Source of the DNA: Nymphaea colorata
Taxonomy: Eukaryota > Streptophyta > Magnoliopsida > Nymphaeales > Nymphaeaceae
DNA length: 64,000 bases
NCBI RefSeq assembly: GCF_008831285.2
Contig: NC_045140.1
Location: forward strand, 14,991,796 to 15,055,795
Direction: 5' to 3'
How positions within the stretch are numbered: the first letter of the stretch is position 1; each line of letters begins with the position of its first letter. This document shows positions 18,280-48,700 of the stretch, in pieces. The position numbers were made by a program, and so were the translations under genes. The notes under the pieces are model-generated. The model saw only the letters and a list, made by a program, of their open reading frames with translations, had not been told where the DNA came from and did not search any database.

Positions 18280-18620
18280 GCACCCAAAAAGGATTGCGGT
18301 CCTTGCATGGAAGGTCAGGGTCGGGTAAGCGAGGGAGGGAAGCAACGGCTCGTTATCCTTCCACCGCCGAGAGCGGGAGGTACTCGCTGCTCTGTGAAGC
18401 CAGCCTCACGCGGTTTCCTCCACCCTAGAGCACAGCGCGCCCAGCCCTTCGACCGGACGCGCAGCGCCGTACTCCCGGCTTGGATCAGGGCGAGCCGATC
18501 AATGCTCCTCCTCCCTCACCGATCCATGACCAACATGCGGTCCCACAACCCCTTGTGCCCTCGCTCGAGTTGCAAGCTTCCGCTACGAAGCTCGGCGATC
18601 GAGGGAACTGGAGCTAAACT
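18280..18620. other. GC-rich open island of unknown origin
   Basis: Within an AT-rich region this stretch is markedly GC-rich and remains open on the plus strand (18265-18699, 144 codons from an ATG). The predicted peptide is rich in R, S, P and C and matches nothing I recognise. It may be an old first exon or CpG-like promoter fragment. Confidence 0.3.
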
Positions 18621-22478: not shown

Positions 22479-25400
22479 ATGGGGGTCGTCTGCAACGGAT
22501 GCGTCTCGGGATTCCTCCCGAAGGATGAGGCCTTTGCTGTACACTATCCGGGATACCCTTCTTCTACATCCCGGGCGATCGAAACCCTCGGCGGCAACGA
22601 CGGCATTCTCAAGGTTCTAGGGTTTCTTGCTTCTCTCTCAGTTTGTTTTGTTTTATTCTCATTTTCTACCATCCATGAATTCCGTGGAATTCCCCCTTGT
22701 GTTTATGGATTTTTTGGTGTCTACGTTTCTCCTTGAGTCATTCCTTGAGTCATTTCCGGTCTTCGGGTTCTTATTCTTCTGGATTATAAACCTTATGCTT
22801 GCGTTGGCCGATGAACTTGGTGAGAAGGCATTGAAGCTCAACTCTATTGCTTTCCTTTCCTTAGATCTATATGTTTTGTAATTGCTTCAATTGTTGTTTT
22901 CCCTTTTGGTCAATTTGCTGTCGCGCTTGATTTTCCTTCTATGTTTCGGTTCGTTCTGCTATTCGGTACTTCATTTTTTCTTTTTTTGCCTTGTTGGGAC
23001 TATTTAGTAAAATTTCATATTTCTCGTTACATATATAGCGCCCCTCTGAAGTGGTGGAACTCTATTGTAGAGGTGGAACAAAAGTCCCACCATAAAACAA
23101 ACGCGGAACTAAAAACCCGGGATTTCTTCTGCAGATACGGAAGTTTACTCCCAGCAATAAAGTTCCACCAAGATAGGTGGAACTTTATTCCTGGGCAATT
23201 TTTTTTTTCCCGTTGGAGTGCTTGCTGTTAGGGTACAGAGGAATCTTCCCTCTTTTCTTTCTCTCATCCGTAGCAAGGCAGAGCTGAGGAAGCTCCTTGC
23301 GCACGGCCTGCAACAGAATAAATGGCCTCATCCTCTCCTCTTCCATTCCCCTTCATTCTCCGCTTATATTGGACATTTCAAAGCCCTAAATCTCATCCGT
23401 TCCCTACAACACAATCGGGGATTTGGGACACCCAATTTCCCTGTTGTAGTCGACGCTGTTGTGGCATAGTTTTTTAGATAAAAATAGAAAATACAAGAAT
23501 AAACAAATTAACAAATCTATGAAAAGGGTTTCCATCTCCAAAAATCTTTACCTCAAATTTGCACCATTTCAAAATTATATTTTCATGTGCATTTTCATGT
23601 TCTAGAACATCATAAAAAAATTTAAAAACAATGATAAAATTGAAACTAAATTAATTAAGGATTTCTTTTTTTAACTTCAGACTCATTATATTTTATTTTA
23701 AAAGTGTTTCCCTTCGGCTCGCTTAAGCACCAACAATTTATCTAATGACCTTCATTTACATTTCAGCTCTCAGTTACCCAAGTTAAGTTAATAAATAATA
23801 GTAAAGAACTTGACACTTTGTTTCATTTTCTTCATGTACAAGGATATGCAACTTTAAATGCCGGATGCGGCGGTTTGCTTTTTAGCATAATTTTAGAAAT
23901 GATTTTTCACATCTACCCTTTTTTAATTTGTTGTTGCTGAGTATTGTTGGAAATATATGTTACTTAAGTTCCATGCACAAACAAACATGGTGTTAAAAAT
24001 ACTTGGAACAAAAATGAAATCAAACAAATATAGGTATATGGAAGATGGAACAAAAGTTCCACAAAAAAAGTACCCGGTACTAAACTACCCGATGCTGATA
24101 CCCGGGTATTTAGTTCCACGTATTCAAATGCTACATGAATACCATAAGGATTCATGCTACATGCTGGCCATTGCCAGATGATTAAAAAATAAAAATTTAT
24201 CGCTAACAATACCATAAAGGCATAAACCATTGTTTAAATCACTATGAACAATTTGTAGCATAAATTATCGTTAATGCTCCCGAGGCAACCGTCTTTTAGC
24301 AATACATTTTTAATTTTTAGCCATCAAACAACATCCAACTCAAACATCCAACAAATTCAAACTTTCATATATATATATGTGTGTGTGTGTGTGTGTAGCC
24401 ATCAAACAACATCCAACTCCAATATCCAGCAGATTCAAACTTTCATATATATATATATGTGTGTGTGTGTGTGCCCGACTTCTTGCTAAACGTCCAAAAG
24501 CTGGCAGTGAGTTAGTTCTTTATGTTGCTTGTAAACTGATCAGTGACACATGTCACTATAATCTGGCTATTCCTAATGTGGAACACTAGGCTTGGTGTAC
24601 TAACATGCTTTTTTTCTTCCAGGCTCGAAGTTCAGTCTCTAATTACTTGGAGCTCCATTTTCGACCTGAAGACCCTTATTCACATCCTGCATTTGGAGAG
24701 TTGCGTCACTGCAAAGGTCTTCTGCTTAGGCTATCTAGAAACAAATCTGCTGATGCTCAAACTGTTGATTCTGCAAAAGATTTTTCAGAGTCTATGCAAG
24801 CTGAAGTCACCAATTTGGAACATGCCAATGAAGGAAAGGATAGTGGCAAGACCCCTGTCGTATCTGAAACTGAACCTACAGCTGCTAATGAGGATAAGCA
24901 TGCAAGATATGATGAACCAACCGTTTCGTCACAACTGTGTGCAGATATCGTAGCTAGGGTGGTTAATGCATACCATTTTGATGGTGAAGTTCAACAAACT
25001 TTGCTACCAAGTCTTCAATAACTGCTTTATTTCATTTAATGATCATATCTTTTGTATATGAGTGATAAAGTAAGTTTATTGCTTAGGCTGAGCACTAAGT
25101 CACATGGGTACAGATACGGGTATGGAGATGCAGGTATCAGCACGGCAACTTTAAGAAATGTAGGTATGGGGATACAGCAGGAGGGTGTATATATATATAT
25201 AAGAAACTACAAAAATTTCAAAATGAAAGCAACATTTAAATAAACAAGTGGTATAAATAAAAACAAGTACATGCTAATGCACAATATCTCTCAAATAAAA
25301 GAATGAAAACTGAGTTAGAATAAACTAAATCAAGTAAAACTGTAAACTAAGTAGTCTGGATCAGTTTCGCTTTAAGAGGGCTCAGGTGTATCTAGTACCC

Positions 25401-28400
25401 GCTTTGCATTGTCGGTGAAACAACACGTTATAGGGACGTTATTGAAGTACCCATGTGACTTAGGCTTGGCATTGGGCCGGCCCACAGTCTGTGCCTGTGG
25501 CCCAAGGCTGGGCCCAAACATCAAAACCCAAGCCTGGCTTGGTCCGTCCCAACCTGATCATAATGAAACCATATATAAAATATATACATTTAATATATAA
25601 ATGTAATATTTATAGTGAAAAATATATAAAAATATAATAAATATTGTTGGCCCTACTTGGCATAGCTCGAAAAGTTATCGGGCTGGCATGAGGCCTCATT
25701 TTGCGGCCCGGGTCTGGCCCGACACCCAACTTTATTTATGCTTTGATGAGAATTATTGTTAATTAGGGCAAAGGTAAGGGTTTCTATGTAGTGATACATT
25801 TTCTAATTTTTTTGGTTCTTCCAGGTATGGTAGATTACCAACACGTTCTTCCTGTTCATGCACATGCTGCAAAGAGAAAGAAGAGGCATTTGGTGCAGTC
25901 ACAATTCGGTATTTGTGTCACATTCCTTATGGATTCTGTTTACCCAAGTCTTTGAAAGCATAAATTGTGGTTACATTACTTCTATATTTCTATCTCATCA
26001 TACAAAGAGGTTCTACTGTTTTGTAGATAAGGATGGCTTTATGGATATAGACCAGGACCTAATGATGTTGGTACCTCCACTGTTCTCACAGAAGGACATC
26101 CCTGAGAATCTTGTGTAAGCCTTATAATGCCTGTTTCCAAAGGAGTTTAGGATGATTCAAGTGTTTTCTCTATATATCCTTTTTCTATTTCCTTTTTTCA
26201 TATCTCTTTTCAGTTGTTGCAAGAAAGGAGATCAGAAGGAAATTAATGATTCTTTGTGTCCTTACCTTTTTTTTTCCAGTTTGGATAACCATCTGGTTTT
26301 CTTTATCCTGTCTTTTGTATCTGTGGGTTGAATTAGTCTGTTTTTAATTCTCCTGGTACTGTGTCGTGTGTCACATCTTTCTTCTCCAGCCAACTGGCGT
26401 AGACTTGGTGCGCTTTTTTCAGAGAAATCTCATTGTTGTCTTGTATTTCCCGTTCTTACTGATTTTTCTTTTCCCAGGTTAAGGCCACTGGGCAGTGAAA
26501 ATTCAAAACTAAAACAGGAGAGGGCAATGCAGCACCACTGGGAGGTACTTGTTTGATACATTATGCTACCTTTTTGCTGATATATGATCATTTGCGGATG
26601 AGCCACGTACATGCTTGTCCTTGCATTCATTGCCATTCAGTCATAATTAGATAGATTAGAAAAAAAATTGTGTTTATGCAGTCATTTTGCTGACGTAACA
26701 TGTTAATCCATGTACATTGCAATTCATAATTGTTTCTTAATTGTGCAGGAGGTTTCATTTCTAGTGATATTCATGCACTGCTAGCTTATTGATTGTCAAG
26801 TCGTGCTACTTTTATATTGTTTGAGAGCAACAACTACCTCCTACTTTATCTTTCCTAGTCTTTTACCGTTTTCTTCAAATCATCTTCAATCTGCTGATTT
26901 GTCACTGCTTGTGGACAAACAATGCTTTGTCCAGATACATCTTTGTCTCCTTTCATGGACATGGTTTGGCGGATTTTACAGTTGTGTCTGACTAGAAGTT
27001 GAACTTTTTTGCAGATGGATATTGGGCCATGTTTCGCTCTTGATTTTGATATAAAAGATATCCTGATAGCCTTTATTTTCACAAATTTGCTTCTTTACTA
27101 TTTCTCAGGCAGTCTATCCTTAGATCTTGTGAGTTCTGCTATTAGCTGAATTTCTCTGTCATACAATGGTTCAAAGTCATATTGTGCTGAGAATGAGAAT
27201 TTAGGTCCTTTGGATGTTCATTGTAAGCACACAAAGGTGTTATGTGATGACTGTTCAGATATAAGTTTTGAATTCTTGTTCAACTTAAAATTTACACATA
27301 TCCCCGGTCCCATCAACTGCATGGAAAAAATCTCAAAGTATTCTACTGACTGGGATTGGCTTTCAGCCATAACAGATTTGTTCAATGAGCGCCCTATCTG
27401 GCCTAGGCGCTCTTTGCATGTCCGATTTCTCGAGAAAGGCCTCAAGGTGTCTAATGATCAGATGAAGAGGTACGTGTTAACTAGTTATTATTTTTGTGCC
27501 ATCTCTGATGTTTCTTTATTAAATCCTGATGGTTCTGTTTTGGACTTGCTATTAATGTTAACTGCCAATTGTAACTGGCATTACTGCAGGCTTCTTCTCA
27601 GATCTGCATATTACTTTGCTACCGGACCCTTCCGGGGGTTCTGGATTAGAAAAGGATACGATCCAAGGAAGGATTCAGAATCACAGATGTAAGATTTTAA
27701 TTATTGTGTTAGGCTGTACTATGTCTACTTTTTAATACTGTACTATGTCTACTTTTTAATACATGCATTTGTTTGGTTGGTGATAAACTTATATGTAGTT
27801 TGGATCTAATGCAATAAGAATCAAGATTAAAGAATCTTAATCCAACTACATTCACAACTAAACTAAAACTAAACTTAAACTAACTAAAACTCAAGCAAAT
27901 GATCAATCGAACAAGAAGAACAGAAGAAAACTAACAACATGTTTAGGCCTTGCCCACAAGCGACAGGTGGAGAAGGGGCCATTCCTTTGCTGCAGGCGGG
28001 ATTTTGACGTCTTTCTTGGCTGGAATTGTGCACGCTGGTGAACGCTTCTCCTCTAGATGCCTTCCCACAACAACGACGGGGCTCCTTGTCGGCAGCTCGA
28101 GAAGAGCTGCAATCACCTGCTCTCGTTCGGGCGAACTGAAGAATGGGGCACTCGTGGGCGGCAAAGTTCCCTTGTTGCTAGTGGCTGGCCTACCGCCTCC
28201 ACCGGCGGCAGGCAGGGCGTCAGATTCTCTGGCTCCCTTAATGGTGACGGCATCCACCACTCCCTGCCCACTAGTGGACGGTAGACCCATTGGTGGGGAA
28301 GCCTCAGGCGGGGAAATCTCTTGCCTTTCTGCACAAGAGGCAGACGAAACAGAAGTTGTTCCCCTGCCGTCGGATGAGCTCCCGAATCCTTTACCTGACG

Positions 28401-31400
28401 GCTATGCAGCGGCCAGCCTCAGCCACTCCTTCAGACGCTCATCCTCAACCATGGCTGGGTTCACCGCTGTCCGATGGTGAAGTGGCGGAGTCGTCTGCTT
28501 ATGTGTTGAAAAAGACAACGGTTGACCCAACGCGAGAGGATGTCCATGAAGATCTTGTGTGTTCTGCAAAATAGAACAGAGCATTCCTCAGATCTCGGCT
28601 ATCTTCCTGGTTACAATAGCAAGATCCTGTCTAATGAAAGATAAATCAGATTCCTGCCTTGCTACGGTCAGCATCAAGGTTTGCTGAACTTGGTCTTTCA
28701 TGTTCGTAAAAGCCTTGCTCTGATACCAATTAATGCAATAAGAATCAAGATTAAAGAATCTTAATCCAACTGCACTCACAACTAAACTAAAACTAAACTT
28801 AAACTAACTAAAACTCAAGCAACTCAAGCAATTGATGAATCAAACAAGAAGAATAGAAGAAAACTAACAACACACTTCATTTCTTTCAACTTCTTGACGG
28901 TCTACAAAATGATCCAATGTCCCCTTATATATAGAAAGGGATGGACTGCGGATCTTGATCATTTTACAAATACTAAAAATTCTAATTGGGTTCAATTACA
29001 AAATTTGGTTATGCTTTCATCTTGCATCAGGATCTGTCCACTTCCCTTAGTTACTTGAGTTTTGAGATGTATAAATGCTTCATTTTTTCTATTGGGCTTC
29101 TTGAGAAGTATTTCATCTAAGAGAAGCAGTGTTGTATGATACGTACGATACAGGGCCGATACGTAAGATACAATACGTATCTTTTACAAAATACGATACA
29201 ATACATGCCCCATATCTACGATACGGGCTGATTTCAAAAAATGGGGGCTAGAACCCTCCTTTTCGTAGTTTTTTTTATAAAATCCCGACCCTTCTTCATT
29301 TTTAACCTAGAGATTGTGCCGTCGTGGAGGGAAATTATCGATTTCCATCGTTAAATCATCGATTAACCATGGATTTGTGCGTGGGTGGCTGATTCTCGTT
29401 GGGAGGAAAGAGTTTTTTTTTTAAATCGTGAAGATGAAAATGAAGAAGAAGATGGAGATGAAGATGAGAATGAATATGATGAAGATTATGAATGAGAGTC
29501 GAGAGTGCTTTCATTGATATATGTATTGACATTGAACATTTTCACAATTTCATTATCATCTTGTGATGTAATACATAACATTTAAGACTTGTTTTTTGAT
29601 GTGGTATCTCATAGACTTATGGACCTTATGACTTATAAATCTATGTGTTTTTTATGAAGAACATATTATTCTTGTTTTTACTGATTTTTTATGAATTTTT
29701 TGAATTTTTTTTCCTATTTTTTCTGATTTATTAAAAAAAAATATGGTTACGATACGTTACGATATTTTGCGATACAGCGTATCTTAAAGCCAGACCGATA
29801 CGGCTTACGATACCCTTTTTACAACATTGAAGAGAAGAGTATCAAATATAAGCCTAAAAAGAATCACCTTCATTGACTTGCCAGGATCCCAGTGGTAATT
29901 TTCAAAAATTGGACCTTCTATGCCATTGGACATATCTTTACGGGACAATTGTGTTCTGCATTGCTTTTCTGCATTTCCAGAATTCTGATCCTTTCATCTT
30001 CAAAGAAATTATCAATTGATATGGACATTCTATTTTATGAAGGCTGTTATTGGTTTCCTTTCACATCATATACATTGAAATCTTCCTCAGGGTCTCTTCC
30101 TATCCTTTTAGTTGATGTGGAGATTAAAAGGTTGAGGTTTTCATTAATTTCGTTAATCAGCATAATTGGACCAGCTTCATGACTTTTCCTCTAAGGTTCC
30201 TTTTTTGTCAATAGGAAGACCTTTTTTGTCAATAGGAAGACTTCACTAGTGTTTTAATGATTCTTTTTCTGATTACATGGGCACTGACTCCTTTTCTAGG
30301 TATGGTCTTACACATCTTTCTTCTCATGTGTGCTGATGAAATTTTTAGGAGACCCTTATGGTCAATTGAGCTTGTGGGAAAGTGATATCTGACAAGGGCG
30401 GTGTACGTGAAGCCTGTTTGCAGTTCACTTCATTGCATATTAGGTTGGTTCTTGGCCATTGTCAGTCTTGTATGAGTCAATTGAGCTGCAATGATGTCCA
30501 TCCTGGCTCAGATGGTGAAAGACTGTTGGCTACTTAAGTGGGTTTCCACCACCAATTGCGTTGATACTTCATCCAGCTGAGTGTATTTTCACTTCTGAGT
30601 TATACAGTTATACTGCTGCTAATGGATGAAAGGGAACAAAAGGTTTCTGGGGAATCACAATAACCATGAAATTAGTGTCTAAAGTGACTAACACTATGAT
30701 TCAGTTAATCTCTGGACTTGTTTCTGCACCAGCATACCAAAACGGCAAAAAAGTTTACCTCTTTATGTCTTTTTGTTCTTTTCATATTGGACCTTCTTGA
30801 CCCTGAAATTTTGTTTAATGAAATTATCTACAGATCATTGGTTTGAACTTAGATATCATTAGTTCACTAATGAGAAAGGATTATATACTCATTTGATTAG
30901 ATCTTCATGCAGATATCAAAGTATTGAGTTCAGAGTTCCTAAAGAGTTGCGGAGCTTCGAGATTATTGGAGCAGATGGAGAGTAAGTTTAACTGCGATTT
31001 TTGTTCCTCCTGTTCTGGTACTGTATGCACTATTTTACAAGGTCTGATTCTGCATGCATTTACATGCATATTTGTGTGGAATTCAATTTGAACAACTTAC
31101 TTTCACCGGAAAAGTATGACATTTAGGATTGCACAACCTTTCAAGCTTCTTGGACTAAACTGGAGCTTGACTTGTTTAAGATTGGCTCGAGCTTGACTTG
31201 TTTATTCGATGAGTTGAATTTGAGCTGAAGGGAGAACTGGCTGAAATAAATGATTTGCCCATTTAACAGTATTACATGTATGAAATACATGCACACACAC
31301 AGTGGCACGTGTGTGTGTGTGTGTAGGTCTTGGGTTCAAACTATTGGACATATTTTCAGCTTAAATAGTTTTCTTAAGCTTAGCCTAGTTTGGCCCAAGG

Positions 31401-34400
31401 TTGAGCCAGCCCATCTAACCCTGGTATTTCATTTTACCAAATTAATTGTTGTTACACTTAAGAAGCTTAGAAGCAGGACCTTGTTTGTAGCTTTTTGAAT
31501 CTAACGCTATGAAGTTTTCATTCAGATGTACAAAAGGCTAAAATGCTTTTGTCTCCTTAGCTAGTTTTGTTGAATAATCCTCTATTAGTATATTGTCAAT
31601 ATATGCTAAATTGTTCCACAGGTAATACATACCGATCTAAGATTTGCATACAAGGCACAATTCCCAGATACAAAAAGGCCAACTGATGTAGTCAAATGGC
31701 TTGTCTTTTTGTAAGTGCCTATGTTGTAGATCATCTCCTTCATGGAGTGCGTTCATTGTAGATCATCCCCACACTGAGTACATATATCATGATATGAGTT
31801 CAATACATGGTGATCTAAGTTAGGATATAGTTGCACTTTTAGGGGGGAATGTTTATGGCATGCCCAAAATTGCATGCTTTCTAACAGTCAAGTACTTTGT
31901 CTCGCCTAAACCCCCCCCCCTGCTGCACGCTGCCTCTACATTTTGATCTTAATTGAAGGACTTAAAAGGTGATTCCTTGCAACAAGCTTGTAGAATTGTG
32001 GCAGTGTATTACCCCCTCTCTTTTCATTGGGGGAGGGAGAGATGCACACATACAGCTTGCTGAAGTAATTTGCATGTGCCACAATTATGAATTAGGTTAT
32101 GCTTTGCCTAACTTGAAAGATTTGTAGTTCGGGGAGATCCATGGTCAACAAGCACTAAACGTGATCACAAATTATTTTTGGAAGTCACTACTAGTCCACT
32201 AGGCTTGTCTTCTTTGTTCAATGCGAATCTGATGTTTGAATAGTTTCCATCATTTTTACTTTTGTTTGCTTCTGTCAAGTTATGTGGTTAAATGTTGAAA
32301 TATTTTTTCTTCCCAGGGGAAAGCAAACATGGAAGGATATGTGCACGTTTCGAGTTTTTCCTTCTAAAAGTTTCTCTAGTCTTCAGCTGTATGAACTTGA
32401 TGATGAGTATATTCAGCAAGAGATTAGAAAACCTACCAAACAAAGCAGTTGCAATGTGAGTTAACTGCTTTTGCATTTGAAATTCATTGTATCTACTGCT
32501 TTCTGACATGTACAATCAATTTAGTTATCTTGCAATCACCAATTTAAATTGCATTCATGATGATTGCCATTCTTAACTATGTAAATACAGGCACATGAAA
32601 TATTTTGTGTTCCTTTTGCTTATATGTGATTCTGGTGCCTGGTAAGTGCTCTGACATGCTTGCAGTCATTAATTTAATTTGTATTCATGGTGACTGTCAT
32701 TCTTAAATATGTAAATACAGGCACATGAAATATTTTATGTTTATTTGATTTGCTTATGTTTGATTTTAGTGCATGGTAAGTGCTCTGTTTGTGTATGTGT
32801 GAGTCTGCATGGGTGTGTACAGAGAAGGAGAGTACAAACTGTTAAGTCTGTACGCATCAATGTAAAAGGGATCGGGTCTGGATCGGGTCTGTTCAGACCC
32901 GATCCACTTCGTTTTTATGTCTTCACGTCTAAGTGGTGGCACCTCAGACCCGATCCACTTCGTTTTTATGTCTTCACGTCTAAGTGGTGGCACCTCTTCT
33001 AATTACTTCATGTTTTATTCCTCTTTTTGTTGTAACCTAATTAGGTTTATGTTTTAATAATAGAGATCAAGCATAGTGTGGCTGCATTGGCCGCCGGTTC
33101 TCTTACCTTCATTGCCTTCTTCTATTCTCTATTCTCCATCCTCCTTATTTTCAGACGGAGAGACGTGATTCGGTGATGTTTTAGTGAAGATTCTCACATG
33201 GTATCAGAGCCAGGTTACATCGTCCTCCGGTGAGTGATTTCTTCTTGGAGTATTCTGCCCTAAATCTTATTTTCTGCCGTGCTTGGAGTATTCTGCCCTA
33301 AATCTTATTTTCTACCGTGGTTATCCTCAAACTCTGTTTCTGCCCTTAATCCCACGATTTGCCCTAATTTCTGTTGCCCTAAATTCTGTTTTTTGCCCTA
33401 AGTCACACGGTTTGCCCTAATTTCTATCGTGACCTCTAAAATTCTGCCCAAATCGTGTTCTAATCCTCTTTTTCAATCATGGACCAGCCGGCTCCCTCTC
33501 TTCTATCCTCTAGTTTTCTCTCACAACTCATCTCTCAAAAACTGAACCATAGTAATTATTTGACTTGGAAACGCCAAATTGTCCCATTTATTAAGAGCCA
33601 TAGACTGTATGGGCACATCGATGGGACTACTCCAGCACCTCCAAAGTATGCTAACCGTGAAATAAAGAAGACAGTCGTGGGAGATAAAGGTGTTGGGGCC
33701 TCGGCTGGAAGTGAAATCAGTTTTGAATATGAAACTCTTCCTGAGAGCAATCCCGAATATGAAGTTTGGCTGGCTCACGACCAGTCTCTTGTTGCTTATA
33801 TCACTTCTACCTTGTCAGAGGAGGTATTGGGAGGTATTGATGATGATTTAACTGCCCTAGAGTTGTGGTCTACCCTTGCTACAACATATTCTCAAGTCTC
33901 GGAAGCACGTTTTCTACAATTAAGAAGGCAATGAAGGTAAGAGAACCGGCGGCCAATGCAGCCACACTATGCTTGATCTCTATTATTAAAACATAAACCT
34001 AATTAGGTTACAACAAAAAGAGGAATAAAACATGAAGTAATTAGAAGAGGTGCCACCACTTAGACGTGAAGACATAAAAACGAAGTGGATCGGGTCTGAA
34101 CAGACCCGATCCAGACCCGATCCCTTTTACATTGATGCGTACAGGTTGAAAACCATTGTATCCAAGAGCAAAGAAAGCTAGATAAAAACAGAAGAGAGAG
34201 AGAAGAGGGATTTACGTGGTTCGGCAGTTTTAAGCCTACATCCACGAGAAGGGAAAAGTCTGTTTTTCATTCATATTTCAGAACCACGGTACAACTCTAT
34301 ATATAGAAGATGGGAGCAAAGAAACAGGAACGTGATAAGCTAGATCTTCACAGCAAGGAAAAAAAGGGATTAAGATAAACTCTTATTTCTTTCAAAGAAT

Positions 34401-37400
34401 CTTAATCTGCTCTTGACTTTTGTTTGACTTGATCTTCTTTCCTGATCTTTTGCATGATCTGTGTTCTTCGTGATCTGCCTCCTATCTTGGCGCACTAGAT
34501 TCCCTTCTAGAAATTTCCAACAATCTCCCCCTCAAGTTGGTGAGCAGATATCAATCTGCCCCAACTTGTTTGATATGTAAAGATGTTTGTCCTTTGCAAG
34601 ATTCTTAGTGAAGATATCAGCTAGTTGCCTTTCGCTTTTAACGTGCGGAGTAGTGATGGTACCATCTTGAACTTTCTCTCTAATAAAGTGGCAATCAACT
34701 TCAATATGTTTGGTGCGCTCATGAAAGACAGGATTAGCTCCAATATATATTGCAGCCATATTGTCGCACAATAAGCTCATAGCTTTCTTTATTTCAATGT
34801 TCATGTCTTTTAGTACTGCTTTGACCCACATAAGTTCACAAGTGCAAGCTGCCATTGCTTTGTATTCAGCTTCAGCACTTGATCTGGCTACAACGGTTTG
34901 TTTTTTGCTTTTCCATGTTACCAAATTTCCTCCAACAAATGTGCAGTAACCAGACGTAGATCTGCGATCATTTGGATCTCCTGCCCAATCAACATCGGCG
35001 TATCCGATTACTTCTAGTTGTTGATCACGTTTCATGAGTATTCCTTTTCCTGGAGTCCCTTTTAGATACCTCAACACTCTATGGGCAGCTTCAACATGTG
35101 TGGATCTTGGTTTATGCATGAACTGACTTATTAAACTAACAGCATAAGCAATATCAGGTCTGGTCACAGTTAAATATATGAGTTTACCAACAAGTTGCTG
35201 AAAACCTTGAATATTCTCAACAATGTCTCCATCTTCTTTACGCAGTTTGCAGTTTAGTTCCAAAGGAGTGTCAGCAGCCTTAGCTCCAATGTATCCTGTC
35301 TCTTTTAATAGGTCAAGAATATATTTCCGTTGGCAAATAAAAATACCTTTGTCAGAGTGCGCAACTTCAATACCCAAAAAATACCTTAAAACACCTAGAT
35401 CTTTGATTTCGAACTGCTTATTAAGGAGTTGTTTGACTTGCGCCATGAATTCTGTGTCATCTCCTGTCAAAATAATGTCATCTACATAAACAAGTAAGAT
35501 AACAATTTTCAATCCTCTAGTATAGGTGAACATGGTATAATCTGCTGAACTTCTTTTAAAACCAATTTGAGTAAGAACATCGCTTAAGCGAGAGAACCAA
35601 GCACGAGGAGACTGTTTTAACCCATATAAAGCCTTTTTTAACTTACAGACATACCCACTTGGGTTTGGAACACCCTGCGGAACTTCCATATAAACTTCTT
35701 CATGAAGTTCTCCATGCAAGAAAGCGTTTTTCACATCAAGCTGCATTAATTCCCACCTTTTATTAGCTGCAACAGAAAGTAAAATCCTGATGGTGTTCAT
35801 TTTGGCAACTGGAGAGAATGTTTCATTGTAATCTATTCCTTCTGTTTGCATGAAACCCTTTCCAACTAGACGAGCCTTGAACCGTTCCACTGTCCCATCA
35901 CTTTTAAACTTTAGTTTATACACCCACTTGCATCCAACCAATTTCTTTCCTTCAGGGAGAGGAACAAGATCCCAAGTTTGATTTTTGTGCAACGCAGTAA
36001 GTTCTTCTTTCATAGCTTCTCTCCACCTACTGTCCCTGTTTGCCTCATCAAAGGTTTTTGGTTCGGTTTGGGAGTAAGTGTTTAACACATAGGTTTGGTA
36101 CGGAAGAGATAGGGTCTGAAATGTTACATATTTTTCTATTGAATGAACTTTGCCTGCAGTCAAGTAGGTGTAGTAGTCACTCAGTTTTATTGGTGGTCTG
36201 GTATTACGAGTGGAACGACGAATAGGTAGCTCAGGACCTTGGCTTTGGGTTGATTCAGATACATTGATCTCTAGGAATATTTGTTCAGGTTCTTCCATGA
36301 TAGATCCCTCTCTATGATCTATGGGGTTAGATTCTATAGACTGGTGATCAACAACAGAGGTGTTGTTAAAAACATCAACAAGAGGCTGAACCTGCTCACT
36401 GTGCTGCAAATCTTCATTACTTACTTGCTCCCCCTGAATTGAGACACCAAAGTATGGCTCCTGCTCAAAAAACTTAACATCACGAGCAACAAGAAGTTTC
36501 CGAGAAATAGGATCATAACACTTGTATCCTCTTTTTCTACTAGAATAACCTAGAAAAATACATTTTGTAGCTCGTTTCTGAAACTTGTTCCTAAAATTTT
36601 CTTGAACATGCACATAACATTTGCACCCAAAAACTTTGAGATGTTGAATTGAAACTGTCCTTCCTAAAAGAAATTCAATAGGAATTTTATCATCTATACT
36701 CGAATTTGGAGTTCTATTGCTTAAATAGCAAGCTGTAGCAATAGCATCAGTCCAAAAACGTGAAGGAACATTCATATGCATCATAATAGATCGACCAATA
36801 TTGAGTAACTGACGATTTTTTCGTTCTGCAACTCCATTTTGTTGAGGGGTTCCTGCACATGTATACTGAGGTTGGATGCCTTTTTCTTTCAAGAAATTTT
36901 TTAGAATGTCATTAACATATTCTCCTCCATTGTCTGATCGAAGCTTTTGGATCTTAGAACCATATTGAGTGAGAACCATGTTATAAAATTCCTCAAACAA
37001 TGTGGGAACTTCACTTTTATTTTTGAGAAAATAGATCCATGTCATTCTAGACTTATCATCAATAAATGAAACATAATACTTAAAACCAGCATAAGAATCC
37101 TCAGGGGCAGGCCCCCACACATCAGAATGTACTAAACTGAAAAAATTAGAAGATCTCTCACTGTTAGGTTGGAACGGCAACCTTGTTGATTTGGAAAACT
37201 CACAAGCATCGCATGCCCTGCTTTCAATGGTGAGATTAGGAACCAGCTGCTTTAAACTCCTATCAGAGACATGTCCAAGGCGAGCATGCCACTTTTGGTA
37301 CTCAGATTCTTTTTCTCTGTAAGTAAGGAAACTAGCATCACACGTATCTATCATATAGAGACCTCCATTCTCGCGTCCTCTACCAATCACTTTCTTCGAG

Positions 37401-40400
37401 TTTCGATCCTGAAAAATCACCTCCTTTGAAGAAAAAATAGCCAAACAATTATGAGTTTTTGTCAATTTGCTCACAGACATTAGACTGGCAGATATCTTAG
37501 GAACATAGAGAACACTAGATTTAATATTTTTTTCAAGAAAAGTAGTTCTACCAACTCCTTCAACTGCTATAGGAGACCCATCTGCAGTAAAGACGTGTTG
37601 TTTTTGTTCTTTGTCTAAACTAGTAATCTTAAAAGAATTTCCAGTCATGTGATCGGTGGCCCCAGAGTCAACAATCCAAGTTGAAGCAGCAGAAACAGAA
37701 ATAAGAGCATGATTCTTACCTTCAGATTCAACTGGTTGAGATGAAACCAGATTCGTCTTTGAAAACTTTTGAAAGAATTTTTCAAGATCTTCCTTGGTCA
37801 CAAAGTTGGCTAGATCTGATTGTTTGGATGATGATTTCTCTTTCGTTGGACGACCAATTAACTCCCAACATCTATCACGTGTGTGTCCAATCTTCTTGCA
37901 GTGATTGCATTTGAATCTGCTTCGGATTCTCTGGCCATTGTTGCTATCATTGAGTAGTTTGGAGTCTCCCTTTTTATTGTTAACATAACATGCCATTTTC
38001 TCAAGACTTTCTTCACTACTAATTTTTGAGGACACGTTCATAACTTTTCGACGGGCTACCTCTCTTTGTATGGTCTGACAAACATTGTTAAATGTTGGAA
38101 GAGGAGACGTCATCAAAATCTGACTTCGAACTGCTTCGTAATCATCAGGTAGACCAGCAAGAACTTTGAAGATCTTATCTTCTTCAAATCTATGTTTATA
38201 AACATCAGGATCAAAGGTGGCTGGTCGGTATTGTAAGAGTTCATCATAGAGACTTCGTAGCTGACCAAGATAAAGTTGAATTGGCTTATCTCCCATAGTA
38301 AGCTTAGAAATTTCCATTTGAATTTCATAAATACGAGCCAGATTGTTTTGTTCTCCATACAAATCTGACTTCGAACTGCTCCATAGAATTGATTAACCAC
38401 GACATAATCATGTCGTTTTCTGACTCCCACTCTTGGTATTTTGGATCATCTTTATCAGGTTGTTTTATAGAACCATTGATGAATCCAAGTTTTGATCGTC
38501 CACTAAGAAACAGACGAGCAGCTTTTGCCCAGCTTAAGTAATTTTTGCCATTGAGAAGAGTAGATGTAATCTTCAACGTGTTGACGTTATGATCGTTGTT
38601 TCTTGGATTTTCTTTGACATTGCTGCTTTGATTAGATTCTTCCATGAAGACAGAGAAAAAAGCACACCGACTCCTCAAATAGCAGGGCAAAAAATTAAAT
38701 ACACAAGAGATCAAACTGAACAAGATCCAAAAAAACACCGAGCGCAAACAACTTTGGGCATGGGTGATAAATTTCAGTCGTTAGTCACAGATGACTACCA
38801 AAGGACCTGGGAGGATTCAAGAGGACTCTGCTCGACAACTGAAAATCCCAAAAAATACCGACGTCGCCAGAGAATGATTAAACGAACTTCCTCGCGTGGT
38901 CTCTGTTTTTCTTTTTAAACAGAAATTCTCTTCCTCCAACGAGAATCAATGAATGGTGAAGTTAATCCAGACGATGATGAGAATACATCACCGAAGCATA
39001 GAAAATCCCCAATTAACAGAAAATCCCCAATTCTGAGATTTAGGAAAAAAACTGTTACCGTAAAGGCAGAACCTTGCCAGAAGGATTGCTGTTCTCAGGC
39101 GAAGCTCTGGTTTCTTCTGTAATTTGTCTTCAATCAGACTTAGAAGACTAACGAACAATCCTCTGATCAGAGTGATACTTCTGGTGACTAGCGTTCTTTA
39201 GGAACAATAAACACTATGAAGCACTCTCTCTCAAGAACCTGCTCTGATACCATGTTGAAAACCATTGTATCCAAGAGCAAAGAAAGCTAGATAAAAACAG
39301 AAGAGAGAGAGAAGAGGGATTTACGTGCTTCGGCAGTTTTAAGCCTACATCCACGAGAAGGGAAAAGTCTGTTTTTCATTCATATTTCAGAACCACGGTA
39401 CAACTCTATATATAGAAGATGGGAGCAAAGAAACAGGAACGTGATAAGCTAGATCTTCACAGCAAGGAAAAAAAGGGATTAAGATAAACTCTTATTTCTT
39501 TCAAAGAATCTTAATCTGCTCTTGACTTTTGTTTGACTTGATCTTCTTTCCTGATCTTTTGCATGATCTGTGTTCTTCGTGATCTGCCTCCTATCAAGCG
39601 TGGGACGCGTACAGTTTTGGAGTATTTGAATGAAATCAAGAGTGTTAGTGATCAGCTTGCTGCAATTGGACATCCCGTCAGCGACAAAGACAAAGTCCAA
39701 CAAGCCTTGAGTGGACTGGGAACGGAATTTGATATTTTTTGCACAGCCTTGGAAGTCTTACCTGTTCTCTCATCTTTTGAAGATCTAAAGGCCAAGCTTT
39801 TTCAACATGAAGCTAGTCGAGTTCAACGACATAATCTGGTTCCTTCCAATAGCCACAATGTATTGATCACAGGAACTCATGCACTGCAAGGAAATCGCAC
39901 TCGTTCTTGGACTCCTCAGACAGGCATGGGAAGAGGGATTCTCCAAACACCGCCAGGCATGAATACTACCTCTGCCACATCTAGGAGAATCCCGACATGC
40001 TTCTATTGCAACAAGAAGGGGCATGTAAAATCAGAATGTTGGCACAATCCTCAGAACAAGAATAGTCAGGTCAGGCGCGAGAATAGGACAGTAGCGGGGT
40101 CAGCTCCATCCTCGTCTGGATCAAATCCAACTTCAAAGGTTTCAGTAGACGTGCAGCAACTTCTAATGACAGCCTTATCCAAACTTAACTTGAAGCAAAA
40201 TGAGCAAGGAGAGTGGTATGTGGACTCTGGAGCAGCAGCCCACGTTACTGGTGACACAGGTAATCTCTCTAGTGTTTCCCCTTATTTAGATCAAGGCTCA
40301 GTAGTCACGGGAGATGGTTCCCATCACACAATATCGCACATTGGAAATGCATAAATATCCATGGGTTTTTCTTCCATTCCATTAAAGAATGTCCTTGTTG

Positions 40401-43400: not shown

Positions 43401-45680
43401 ACTTGAGGGGGGTTGTTAAGTCTGTACGCATCAATGTAAAAGGGATCGGGTCTGGATCGGGTCTGTTCAGACCCGATCCACTTCGTTTTTATGTCTTCAC
43501 GTCTAAGTGGTGGCACCTCTTGTAATTACTTCATGTTTTATTCCTCTTTTTGTTGTAACCTAATTAGGTTTATGTTTTAATAATAGAGATCAAGCATAGT
43601 GTGGCTGCATTGGCCGCCGGTTCTCTTACCTTCATTGCCTTCTTCTATTCTCTATTCTCCATCCTCCTTATTTTCAGACGGAGAGACGTGATTCGGTGAT
43701 GTTTTAGTGAAGATTCTCACACAAACTGGGTATATATGTCGTAGGTTCCACATACAGGAAACACAACCATTCCACAACAGATGTCCAGGAAAAGACTAAA
43801 TATGACTTGAAATGAATGCTAGAGGTTTTGAACATTTTTGTTTTTCCACCACCAAGTAAACCTTTGGCAGCAGATTTAAAGGTTTACTGAATACCTTTTT
43901 TGAATTGGATCCTAAGAAATGCAAGACGCCAAAAGGGTAGTGTTTCTTTTCCTTCTTTTCTCCAATGCATATGCTTGTGAGCTTTAGGCGTCAAATTTCT
44001 GAACACATCCGTTGTCACCTATGCATCTGCATTAAGGTTCGCTTGCAAAGTCAAGTGATGTATAGGGCAACTGTATTCTGTGCTTGCTTTCTTTGACTTC
44101 ATCTAGTCTCTTCGAGGTGCTTTCTGTACTTCATGACGAAAAGGACCCTGCTGACCCGTTCTAGCTATTGAGAGTTGTGTAGCTCATGTAGCAAGTCTAT
44201 CTTCCTCTTATCTTATCTAATTTTAGGCTGGTCTAAGCTGACCACCAATCAATGTGCAAAAGCAACTGACGACCAAAATGTGCATCATGGGAAAGAAACT
44301 GACAAAGCTGTTACAGGATGAGGTATCCCTTGGAGGATGCCAACAATGCAGGGTAGCCCACAAAGCACTCGCAACTTTCAATGGCGTGTCATGAGCAAAG
44401 CCAATGAACATGCAATTTTTTTCTTATGGCCTCATTTGATTTTGTAAGTAAGCACAATAGTTTTGCCAAAAATCGTGGTCCCGCTCGTAGTTGCAAATAA
44501 CGTCTCGGAGTTTTAAACGGCAAAGTTTTTCTTGGGTATAATATGGTGGGCTTGAAAAATACAGGAAAAAAGGGGGAAAATGTTATTTATTAAAAAAAAT
44601 TAAAAATTAAAAATAGAAAAAAATAAAATAAGTGGGAAAATAATAACACAAACATCAAAAGATAAGTAGATTTGCAACAAATAAAAAAAAAAAAAGACTG
44701 TTTGGCATAAAAAAATGGAAAAAAAGTGATATGGCATGTAGGGGATGATATGGCACTCGTATTTTTTTGTATTTTTTTTTTGTATGTTTTGGTATTTATT
44801 TGTTTAGTAAACTTTATTTATGCTTATATACAATGTATATATGTCTTTACTTCAAATCTCATTGTTGTTGTAAACATATATGTGTATCTATGTCACACGG
44901 GTAGGGGTACGGTATGGGTACGGGTACGCGGACACGGTGAATATTATATTTTAAAAAATTAAAAATGATAATAAAAAAACATTAAATTAATAATTCACTC
45001 TTACAATCTCATAAGTCATAAGAAAGAAAGTCTCAAACAAACATAACATGAAATAAAACAATACAACAAAGTATAAACATGCAGATTTATTTCTGGATAA
45101 TGTAAAACAGTCCTCAATGAGAGCAGGCAACATTCGACACATTCTAGTGACTGTTGGCAACGGTCACCACAAGCACTGAGGCAAAATCCCCAAATCGGCA
45201 AAATCCCCAAATCCCCAAATCAAACGAAAAAAGAAAATATCGCACATAACATTGAAGAATAGGATCAAGATCGACGGATTAACCGTCCAATCTTCAAACG
45301 AAAACATCCCCAAATCGGCAAGAAAAACCCAAATGAAGCATGAAACCCAAACTTCTAATATCAAAAAGAAAACAAAAACAATTACATGTCTGCCGCCGGA
45401 CGCCACTGGATGTCGCCGTCGATCGCCGGAGCTCGTTGCCGTAAGGAGTCGATGGTAAAGGTCGACCGTCGAGGGTAAAGCGTAAAACGAAATCGAGGGC
45501 AAATTGGGTTATGAAAGTGGTTCAGATCGGGTCTAACCCAGATCCGATCCAAAACGTATCCTGCCGTGTCCAAGTGTCGGGATCCGTGTGTCGGAGTGTC
45601 GACACTGGTACGTGACCCAAATTGCCGTATCCGTGTCACATAGATGTGTATCAGCATCACAAATATCGCCATATTTTCGA

Positions 45681-45721
<41 letters not shown>

Positions 45722-48700
45722 CATCACAAATATTGCGATATTTTCAAAACTATATATACATATCACATTTATAGGGTTGCAACTCCAGAGACAACAAAGG
45801 ACACACCCTTGCTGTCACCCCTCGAAGGTGGTCTGTGGTCATCTTAGCCATCCTGGTGGCCAGCATGATTGGGGTATGCTTGCTGCTCATTACCCACTCC
45901 CTACCGATTCTTTACCCTGACAGGAAGATCTTCACCGTCGTAAAGGCATTGGGGGAGAACCCAGCTGATGCTTACTCGCCGCTGGGGGATAACCGGATGA
46001 AGCTGGCCTGGTAGGCTTGCTCTTGATAGACAAAGACTTACATCTCCAACAGGTTCGCAACAGTGAAAAGAAGACAGAAGCCGAAGAAGAGAGAGAGATA
46101 GAGATTGCATCAACAATCCCTAACAGGAAAAAAGATTTCCAGGGATTTCAATCGCACCCCTCACGGGTGGATTGAAATTCATGGAAAGGAATCCATGTTT
46201 TGCATCTAAAATCCAGGATTACATTCTCGTGTTTGTTGCCATTCCAGACTTTTTCCAAAATATGGACTGGGGTCCCACTTGAACAGTGGAATGCAAGCAC
46301 GATAAATATGCCCTTAGATACATTATATGCAATCTAAATCACATGGATACTTCAGTACATGTACCTGTGTCGCCAACCCGTACTCAAAGTAGTTACTTGG
46401 GCATGCTTGTGTAAAATTAAAACTGCTTATTTTGACTTGTTCTAATTTTTTCCAACTCAGTTTTCATTCTTTTTTAGAGTTTTTAACATGTAATATTTTT
46501 ATTTATATCACTTTATTTATTTAAATGTTGCTTTCATTTTAATTTTTTTTGTGTTATTTTGCATATATACATATGTATATATCCAGCCATACCTCTGTAC
46601 CCATATTTTCTAAAGTTGCCGTTTTGTACCTGTCTTTGTAGCCGAACCATACCGGTACCCATGTGACTTAGTATGCAATCTGAAAAGGCTGCACTCTTGC
46701 ATTTTTTTTTTGTTTTACATTCTGATACTGAAGAAAAGTTCCTTCTCTCAACTTGAACGTTGAAATCCTTCATTGGCTTTTTTCTTTCTGCTTTTCAACC
46801 ATGGCAGGTTGTCTTTGAAAAATGAGCCCACCTGCAGGCCATTTGTGCAGCAGTACACCAATCATTTAACAAATGCCCACAGGAAATTACTTGTAATTCA
46901 GGATCAAGCGGTTCTATTTGCACAACTATTGGGCTTCACCATCATTGTCATCGAAGTTTAGCTCAACAATGTTTGGCTATAGATTCCATTCATTTCTGTA
47001 GTAGAATTATGGCATGATTCTCGATCATCTTTCTTATCACCAATTATGGCCTTCATTTAAGTCCATGATGGTTTTGCCTAATGTTGTTGCTTCATGAAAT
47101 CTTTCTCAGTGATTCATATGGTGCTTCTGGAACATCATAGCCAACAGTATCTACTTATTTTATTCTAATTTTTCTTCTTCCTAGAGGTTTGTGTAAGGAA
47201 GTGTTAATATGTTCATGATTGACTAAGAGTAATTCATTTATCTTTTATGTGAAACTTCTTAAGTTGAAGAGTAGAACTTACCTTGCTATCTGTTAGTATT
47301 CATGTTAAGTACATAAATATCGAGTACTTGTCATAAAAAATAGACTTTTTTTTTCTCAATTTACAGTTTTTATGTATTTTCATCAGAAAGTCCTCCCATT
47401 AAGATTCTTATGGAAGCACAATTTCTTCTATGCAGCGATGGACAGGATGGTTCTCTCGAAACAGATTCCGTCGGCTAAGGTTGTCTGTTCATATAAGGTT
47501 TCTTTCTATACATCCTAGTCCAGAGGCAAAAAATTTGCTGAAGGATGTCTCTAAGCGCCTTGAGAATTGCAAAAAATTAGGAAATCTTGAAGGTGGTTTG
47601 TCTGATGATGAGGATCTTCAACCTGCTGATGGAGGTACAGGGCGATATTGCTTGCATTACTTATTGTTATTTTTCTCTGTCATGGTGCATATAGGCACTG
47701 ACAGAATTTTTTCTATAAAATGAGAGCTTAGATAATTAAAATCAGATCATAAACATGAGAGAGTTTTGTAAATCGTGATTAAGAAGTCCACCCTGAGATA
47801 TACCATAGAACAATGAAGACATTTTATTTCTGATATTCAAAACTTGTCCTTTTATGGAAGGGGTCATCTCATGCGTTATTTGATGGCTTAATAGCACCGA
47901 GTTGCTATGTTGGTTTTCCCTGTGACTTGGAGAATTTTCTTGCTCAAATTACCAGCCTAGATGTCCTCATGGTCCTGTCTTGTAAATAACAGTGTTGAGA
48001 CTTGTATCAGCTGGTACATATCATCACATGTTGGCCTGTATCACCTTACATTCTTATCTTTGAATTCAAACGGTTTAATATGTATCGGCTGATATGCACC
48101 GGCAGGAAAGTTTTACAACACTGGTATGCAAATGCTACTTGATCCCCTGAAATGTTGCTGTATGAACTTGTCCTAGAATATGTATCTTGAGTCCTTGACC
48201 CACTTTTATTTAGATCATGTATTGCAGTGACCAGAATGTATACTTCCTTTGCACTAAATTGGTGAGGATCCTCCTTCACTCCACTAAGTAGAGATGTCTT
48301 GCAGATCCTAAAGGTGATACTTTTGGAATAAAAGAATTGACAGGAGATATGGATCTCATATATGGTGATGATAAAGGTGAACTGGGTGATGAAGAAGCAG
48401 AGGAAGAGGAAGAGGAAGAAGAAGAAGAGGAAGAAGGATATAATGTGGATGGGTCACTAGTCATGGTAGGGACTAGGGAGTATAAGTTTTAGTGTACATT
48501 GTTCTCTTGACGTTGGGATAATCTGGATCTTTCCCCCATATGAACTTTCTATTTATTTACTAATATGAGTTGACAAACCCTTTCTTTTCAACAGGGTGGT
48601 GAACACGGAGGTCCCTCCTTATCGCAGCATCCATGTATCCTTCAAAAAAAATGCAATTCCAAGTTTATTACTGAAATTTTATCTAGTAGTTGATTGCTGC

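Follow-up and report, generated by a model that had tools for sequence, protein, structure and literature searches.

A predicted U12-type AT-AC intron in the TFIIIC subunit 5 gene of Nymphaea colorata

The gene for TFIIIC subunit 5 lies on the forward strand of a 64,000-nucleotide (nt) stretch of Nymphaea colorata DNA (contig NC_045140.1, positions 14,991,796 to 15,055,795), which was analysed here as a whole and is called the window. Judged from the sequence, intron 6 of this gene very probably belongs to the AT-AC subtype of the U12-type (minor) spliceosomal introns. The predicted intron occupies positions 27058-27297 (+), is 240 nt long and lies in phase 1, between the first and second bases of an Asp codon. 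Its first bases are ATATCCTGAT and its last bases AAATTTACAC, with TTTACAC at the 3' end. At the junction, the upstream exon ends in GATATAAAAG, the intron begins with ATATCCTGATAG and ends with TTCTTGTTCAACTTAAAATTTACAC, and the downstream exon starts with ATATCCCCGGTCCC, giving the protein sequence I-K-D-I-P-G-P-I-N. An initial annotation had placed such an intron at 27058-27297, and its coordinates, sequence and frame were all reproduced from the sequence. Its interpretation as U12-type AT-AC is also supported, on the grounds of an in-frame stop in the retained stretch, a near-perfect donor with C at +5, an AC acceptor that restores the frame, and the poor quality of the GT-AG rivals; the branch site and the protein continuity to which it had also appealed give no independent support.

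The 5' splice site, ATATCCTG (27058-27065, +), agrees with ATATCCTT at seven of eight positions, the same count that the initial annotation had given for the match to the U12 AT-AC consensus. Bases +5 and +6 are both C, the U12 pattern, and base +8 is G, not T. Scoring of the donor by a U12 matrix, which had been proposed as a check, placed intron 6 well above the other ten introns of the gene, with 8.0 versus -15.9 to 2.4; the matrices were built from 15 published U12-type introns, mostly animal and several of them orthologous, with 13 GT-AG nematode rows omitted, and the scores are rough. A donor score of at least 8.0 is reached at 91 of the 127,984 positions on both strands of the window.

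For a donor at 27058, a scan of exon starts over 27118-27399 gave a single in-frame AC acceptor, TACAC at 27293-27297 (+). Such a combination rarely arises in shuffled sequence: in 5000 shuffles of 27031-27297 with dinucleotides preserved, a usable in-frame and stop-free pair of ATATCCT with AC was obtained in six trials, and one of ATATCC with AC in ten. On retention of intron 6 the frame runs into a TGA at 27147-27149 (+), the 31st codon from the split Asp codon, and because the retained stretch holds this in-frame stop, part of the stretch must be removed.

The gene, of the Tau95/GTF3C5 family, was modelled at 22479-48492 (+) with 12 exons and 547 codons, the stop codon TAG lying at 48490-48492. 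Its spliced frame is open from ATG to TAG with no internal stop. Exons 1-6 lie at 22479-22613, 24623-24983, 25825-25908, 26027-26114, 26478-26544 and 27015-27057, and exons 7-12 at 27298-27469, 27590-27688, 30913-30981, 32317-32455, 47436-47634 and 48305-48492, all on the forward strand. Exon 6 (43 nt) has an open frame, follows the acceptor aacttttttgcag and ends in phase 1; exon 7 (172 nt) starts with ATATCCCCGG (D-I-P-G). GT-AG ends are found in 10 of the 11 introns, intron 6 being the exception. Searches of Pfam with the modelled protein gave Tau95_N at 82.9 bits and Tau95 at 92.8 bits (cut-offs 23.1 and 23.7), together spanning residues 20-357, and with the AT-AC join the Tau95 profile is covered over its full length, positions 1-144 of 144. 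Among solved proteins, human GTF3C5 (8clk chain E) is the closest match, with an E-value of 8.2e-23. Both results agree with the gene identity given in the initial annotation. Exons 10-12 lie outside the Pfam matches and were placed by open frame and splice sites, with sequence motifs used to locate exon 11. No relatives were found in viral and prokaryote contig collections. Separately, intron 4, which has GT-AG ends, contains a perfect U12-type donor, ATATCCTTT, at 26174-26182; its occurrence is at chance level, and it is a possible decoy.

A number of observations weigh against the AT-AC assignment or lend it no support. The full ATATCCTT occurs in intron 4, at 26174, as well as at four places on the opposite strand. 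The donor motif alone proves nothing; it is its place, together with the in-frame AC acceptor, that counts. The best branch-site candidate, TTGTTCAAC at 27276-27284 (+), is weak, with six of nine positions matching TTCCTTRAY. Its second A (27283) lies 14 nt ahead of the last intron base, so the candidate falls within the 10 to 15 nt expected for a TCCTTAAC-like branch site. Hence the TTCAAC-like branch site noted earlier 10-15 nt from the acceptor stands as far as distance is concerned, but not as support above chance: 48.5% of 20,000 random stretches equal or exceed it by the small matrix, so that the proposed scoring of the branch site by a U12 matrix gave a result no better than random sequence. 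By match count, at least six of nine positions are reached in 11,770 of 20,000 random stretches of the window, and also in three of six GT-AG introns taken for comparison. Pairing with a segment of U12 reached -6.4 kcal/mol at best, in a register read as having no suitable bulged A, compared with -8.4 kcal/mol for the consensus. Being at chance level by both match count and matrix, the branch site was rejected as support for the AT-AC reading. The pyrimidine content at -20 to -4 of intron 6 is 0.53, within the range of the six GT-AG introns (0.53 to 0.82), two of which are not higher. Neither the branch site nor the pyrimidine content settles the question; the fit to the class lies in donor, acceptor and phase.

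Homology likewise fails to single out the AT-AC join. Protein continuity had been held to fix the junction, which was not reproduced: when the 10,647 in-frame joins free of stops were compared with human GTF3C5, the AT-AC join came 785th, in a group of 247 with the same score. Its score of 158 is exceeded by the GT-AG join 27030/27367 (164; joins are given as the exon bases that flank the intron) and the GC-AG join 27035/27339 (162), and is equalled by one GT-AG and one GC-AG join. The low rank was taken to reflect poor conservation ahead of LFNERPIW. On the Pfam Tau95 profile a near-tie was obtained, with 95.1 bits for the AT-AC join and 95.7 bits for the GT-AG join 27030/27259, the latter marking the upper end of a range from 80.2 bits for seven GT-AG rivals (six from the 14 listed of 24 pairs, plus 27030/27259 from a separate scan). 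With phmmer, human GTF3C5 is aligned to the AT-AC version as one 205-residue piece through the junction (68.5 bits), whereas the alignment to the 27030/27259 version splits in two (15.1 and 54.1 bits); the totals are equal, 70.6 versus 71.0 bits. As the human protein favours many joins without known intron ends and Pfam gives a tie, homology was rejected as the sole arbiter of the junction. The further claim that AT-AC is the only border pair that works does not hold when the protein is left free, since 24 in-frame, stop-free GT-AG pairs exist. Plant orthologues presumably read D-F-x-I-K-E-I-P at this position, which would fit the AT-AC join; this was not counted as evidence.

These 24 pairs raise the question of a conventional U2-type GT-AG intron with other borders, with the donor at 27031 (GTTTCG) and the acceptor before 27259 or 27367, or with the donor at 27129 (GTGAGT) and a weak acceptor, which we consider unlikely. 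The intron at 27031-27258 (+), with donor cat/GTTTCGCT and acceptor GACTGTTCAG, keeps the frame and is the one that draws level on Tau95. Its donor, however, does not pair stably with U1 (+0.7 kcal/mol, versus -4.3 to -6.2 kcal/mol for the seven tested of the gene's ten GT donors), and the border at 27030 leaves an exon of 16 nt. The 27030/27367 join, for all its higher score with the human protein, sacrifices 69 nt at the start of exon 7 as well as the end of exon 6; on Tau95 it reaches 92.2 bits, matched from position 55. The best U2-type donor in the stretch is GTGAGT at 27129-27134 (+), which pairs with U1 at -5.2 kcal/mol, as good as the gene's other donors, but its in-frame acceptors are weak by a crude score, and the four versions that use it cover Tau95 only in part, with scores of 80.2 to 91.6 bits and matches that begin at profile positions 66 to 79 of 144. 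This donor would also make 71 nt with 45% T coding, compared with a T content of 26% across the remaining exons and 36% across six other introns. The last bases of exon 6 (27031-27057), at 44% T, are themselves as T-rich as intron sequence; the argument from T composition therefore leaves the 27030 rival untouched, and this T-richness too speaks against the AT-AC borders. Some other routes were set aside. Joining exon 5 to exon 7 without the 43-nt exon 6 breaks the frame and was rejected; exon 5 has ten further in-frame acceptors, which would drop exon 6 and its good acceptor and for that reason were left unscored. U11 duplex energies failed to distinguish U12-type donors from others and were not used.

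It is very improbable that 27058-27297 is no working intron at all, that is, that the gene is a broken copy or the assembly is in error. The non-canonical ends would fit this, as would the 6-nt flanking repeat, of a kind seen after an insertion: ATATCC opens both intron 6 and exon 7. The resulting freedom of the border to slide by up to six bases, pointed out in the initial annotation, is real; read off the sequence, the first of the seven registers is the only one with known intron ends. For the residues D-I-P in phase 1, however, the gene's own codon use gives such a repeat a chance of 0.26, which is unremarkable. None of the nine inverted-repeat pairs found lies at the ends of 27058-27297, and no further copy of this piece was found within the 64-kb window, the best other match being 19 nt. 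On these three grounds an insertion with target-site duplication was rejected. A decayed copy would, moreover, rarely preserve twelve exons that read from ATG to TAG uninterrupted by stops. Still less is to be said for an AT-AC intron of the U2 type. A few U2-type introns do have AT-AC ends (PMC2831892, PMC7072748; PMC, PubMed Central), and those of sodium channel genes share the terminal dinucleotides of intron 6, but they have G at +5 (PMC2831892), where intron 6 has C, and C at both +5 and +6 is the U12 pattern.

The U12-type AT-AC assignment would put intron 6 in a small class. U12-type introns make up less than 0.5% of introns (PMC3584512), and AT-AC introns account for 13 to 26% of the U12-type introns of four plants (PMC7367187, Table 2); the Arabidopsis U12-type sets used for comparison in the same paper hold 238 introns (U12DB) and 292 introns (ERISdb). 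With the plant U12-type AT-AC introns of the U12DB, ERISdb and IAOD sets, intron 6 has in common the ATATCC donor, the AC acceptor and its position as a lone minor intron amid GT-AG introns, and it differs from them in having G for T at +8 and a weak branch site, and in being a prediction. The U12 intron of plant CBP20 has GT-AG ends. Compared with U12-type GT-AG introns, for which the CBP20 intron may serve as an example (PMC5932401), the presumed spliceosome is the same and the terminal dinucleotides differ. No literature tying the TFIIIC subunit 5 gene to minor splicing was found among the matches listed, supplements and databases being outside the search, and the sole match for GTF3C5 and U12 in one paper was a pig association study. 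Intron 6 may well be catalogued already in U12 databases or supplements.

Other features were observed in the window. In the 15-kb intron 10 of the gene, direct repeats at 34142-34441 and 39251-39550 with 99% identity across 300 nt resemble long terminal repeats, and between them lies an uninterrupted frame of 1286 codons (34532-38392, reverse strand) that we read as a Copia gag-pol. We read 34142-39550 as a young retrotransposon inside this intron. The same intron has repeat copies at 32944-33198, 33922-34144 and 43422-43721, in both orientations and with 100% identity across 178 to 255 nt, and frames at 33464-33934 and 39542-40354 (+) that by our own reading are gag-like; together, these look like nested insertions. 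In intron 8, a GC-richer piece is flanked by AT-rich stretches that resemble each other (around 27806-27900 and 28731-28830, found by eye), and the arrangement at 27806-28830 suggests a small mobile element. A full-length Plant_SRP RNA gene, which points to a plant as the source of the window, is located at 18289-18596 on the reverse strand (Rfam, 212.8 bits).

In U12-type introns, the donor pairs with U11 and the branch site with U12 (PMC2846911), and U11-48K touches the first three donor bases (PMC7367187). As a member of this class, intron 6 would have its ATATCC donor recognised by U11 small nuclear RNA (snRNA) together with U11-48K, and U12 snRNA would bind a branch site of degenerate sequence, for which 27283 is a candidate. 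At a later stage U6atac would take the place of U11, and the minor spliceosome would join 27057 to 27298, restoring the Asp codon as G/AT. If splicing failed, the retained intron would bring in the stop at 27147, and the unspliced RNA could not make the protein. The presence of a lone minor intron in a DNA-binding subunit of TFIIIC, together with the early stop on retention, leads to the idea that TFIIIC levels in plants, and with them those of tRNA and 5S RNA, could be set by how efficiently minor introns are spliced, which we regard as a long shot. For annotation the case is a useful one: gene finders restricted to GT-AG introns would misplace the border and alter the protein just ahead of the conserved helix-turn-helix domain. 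Biologically, intron 6 would be one further minor intron among the few hundred of a plant genome, and an ordinary one of its kind.
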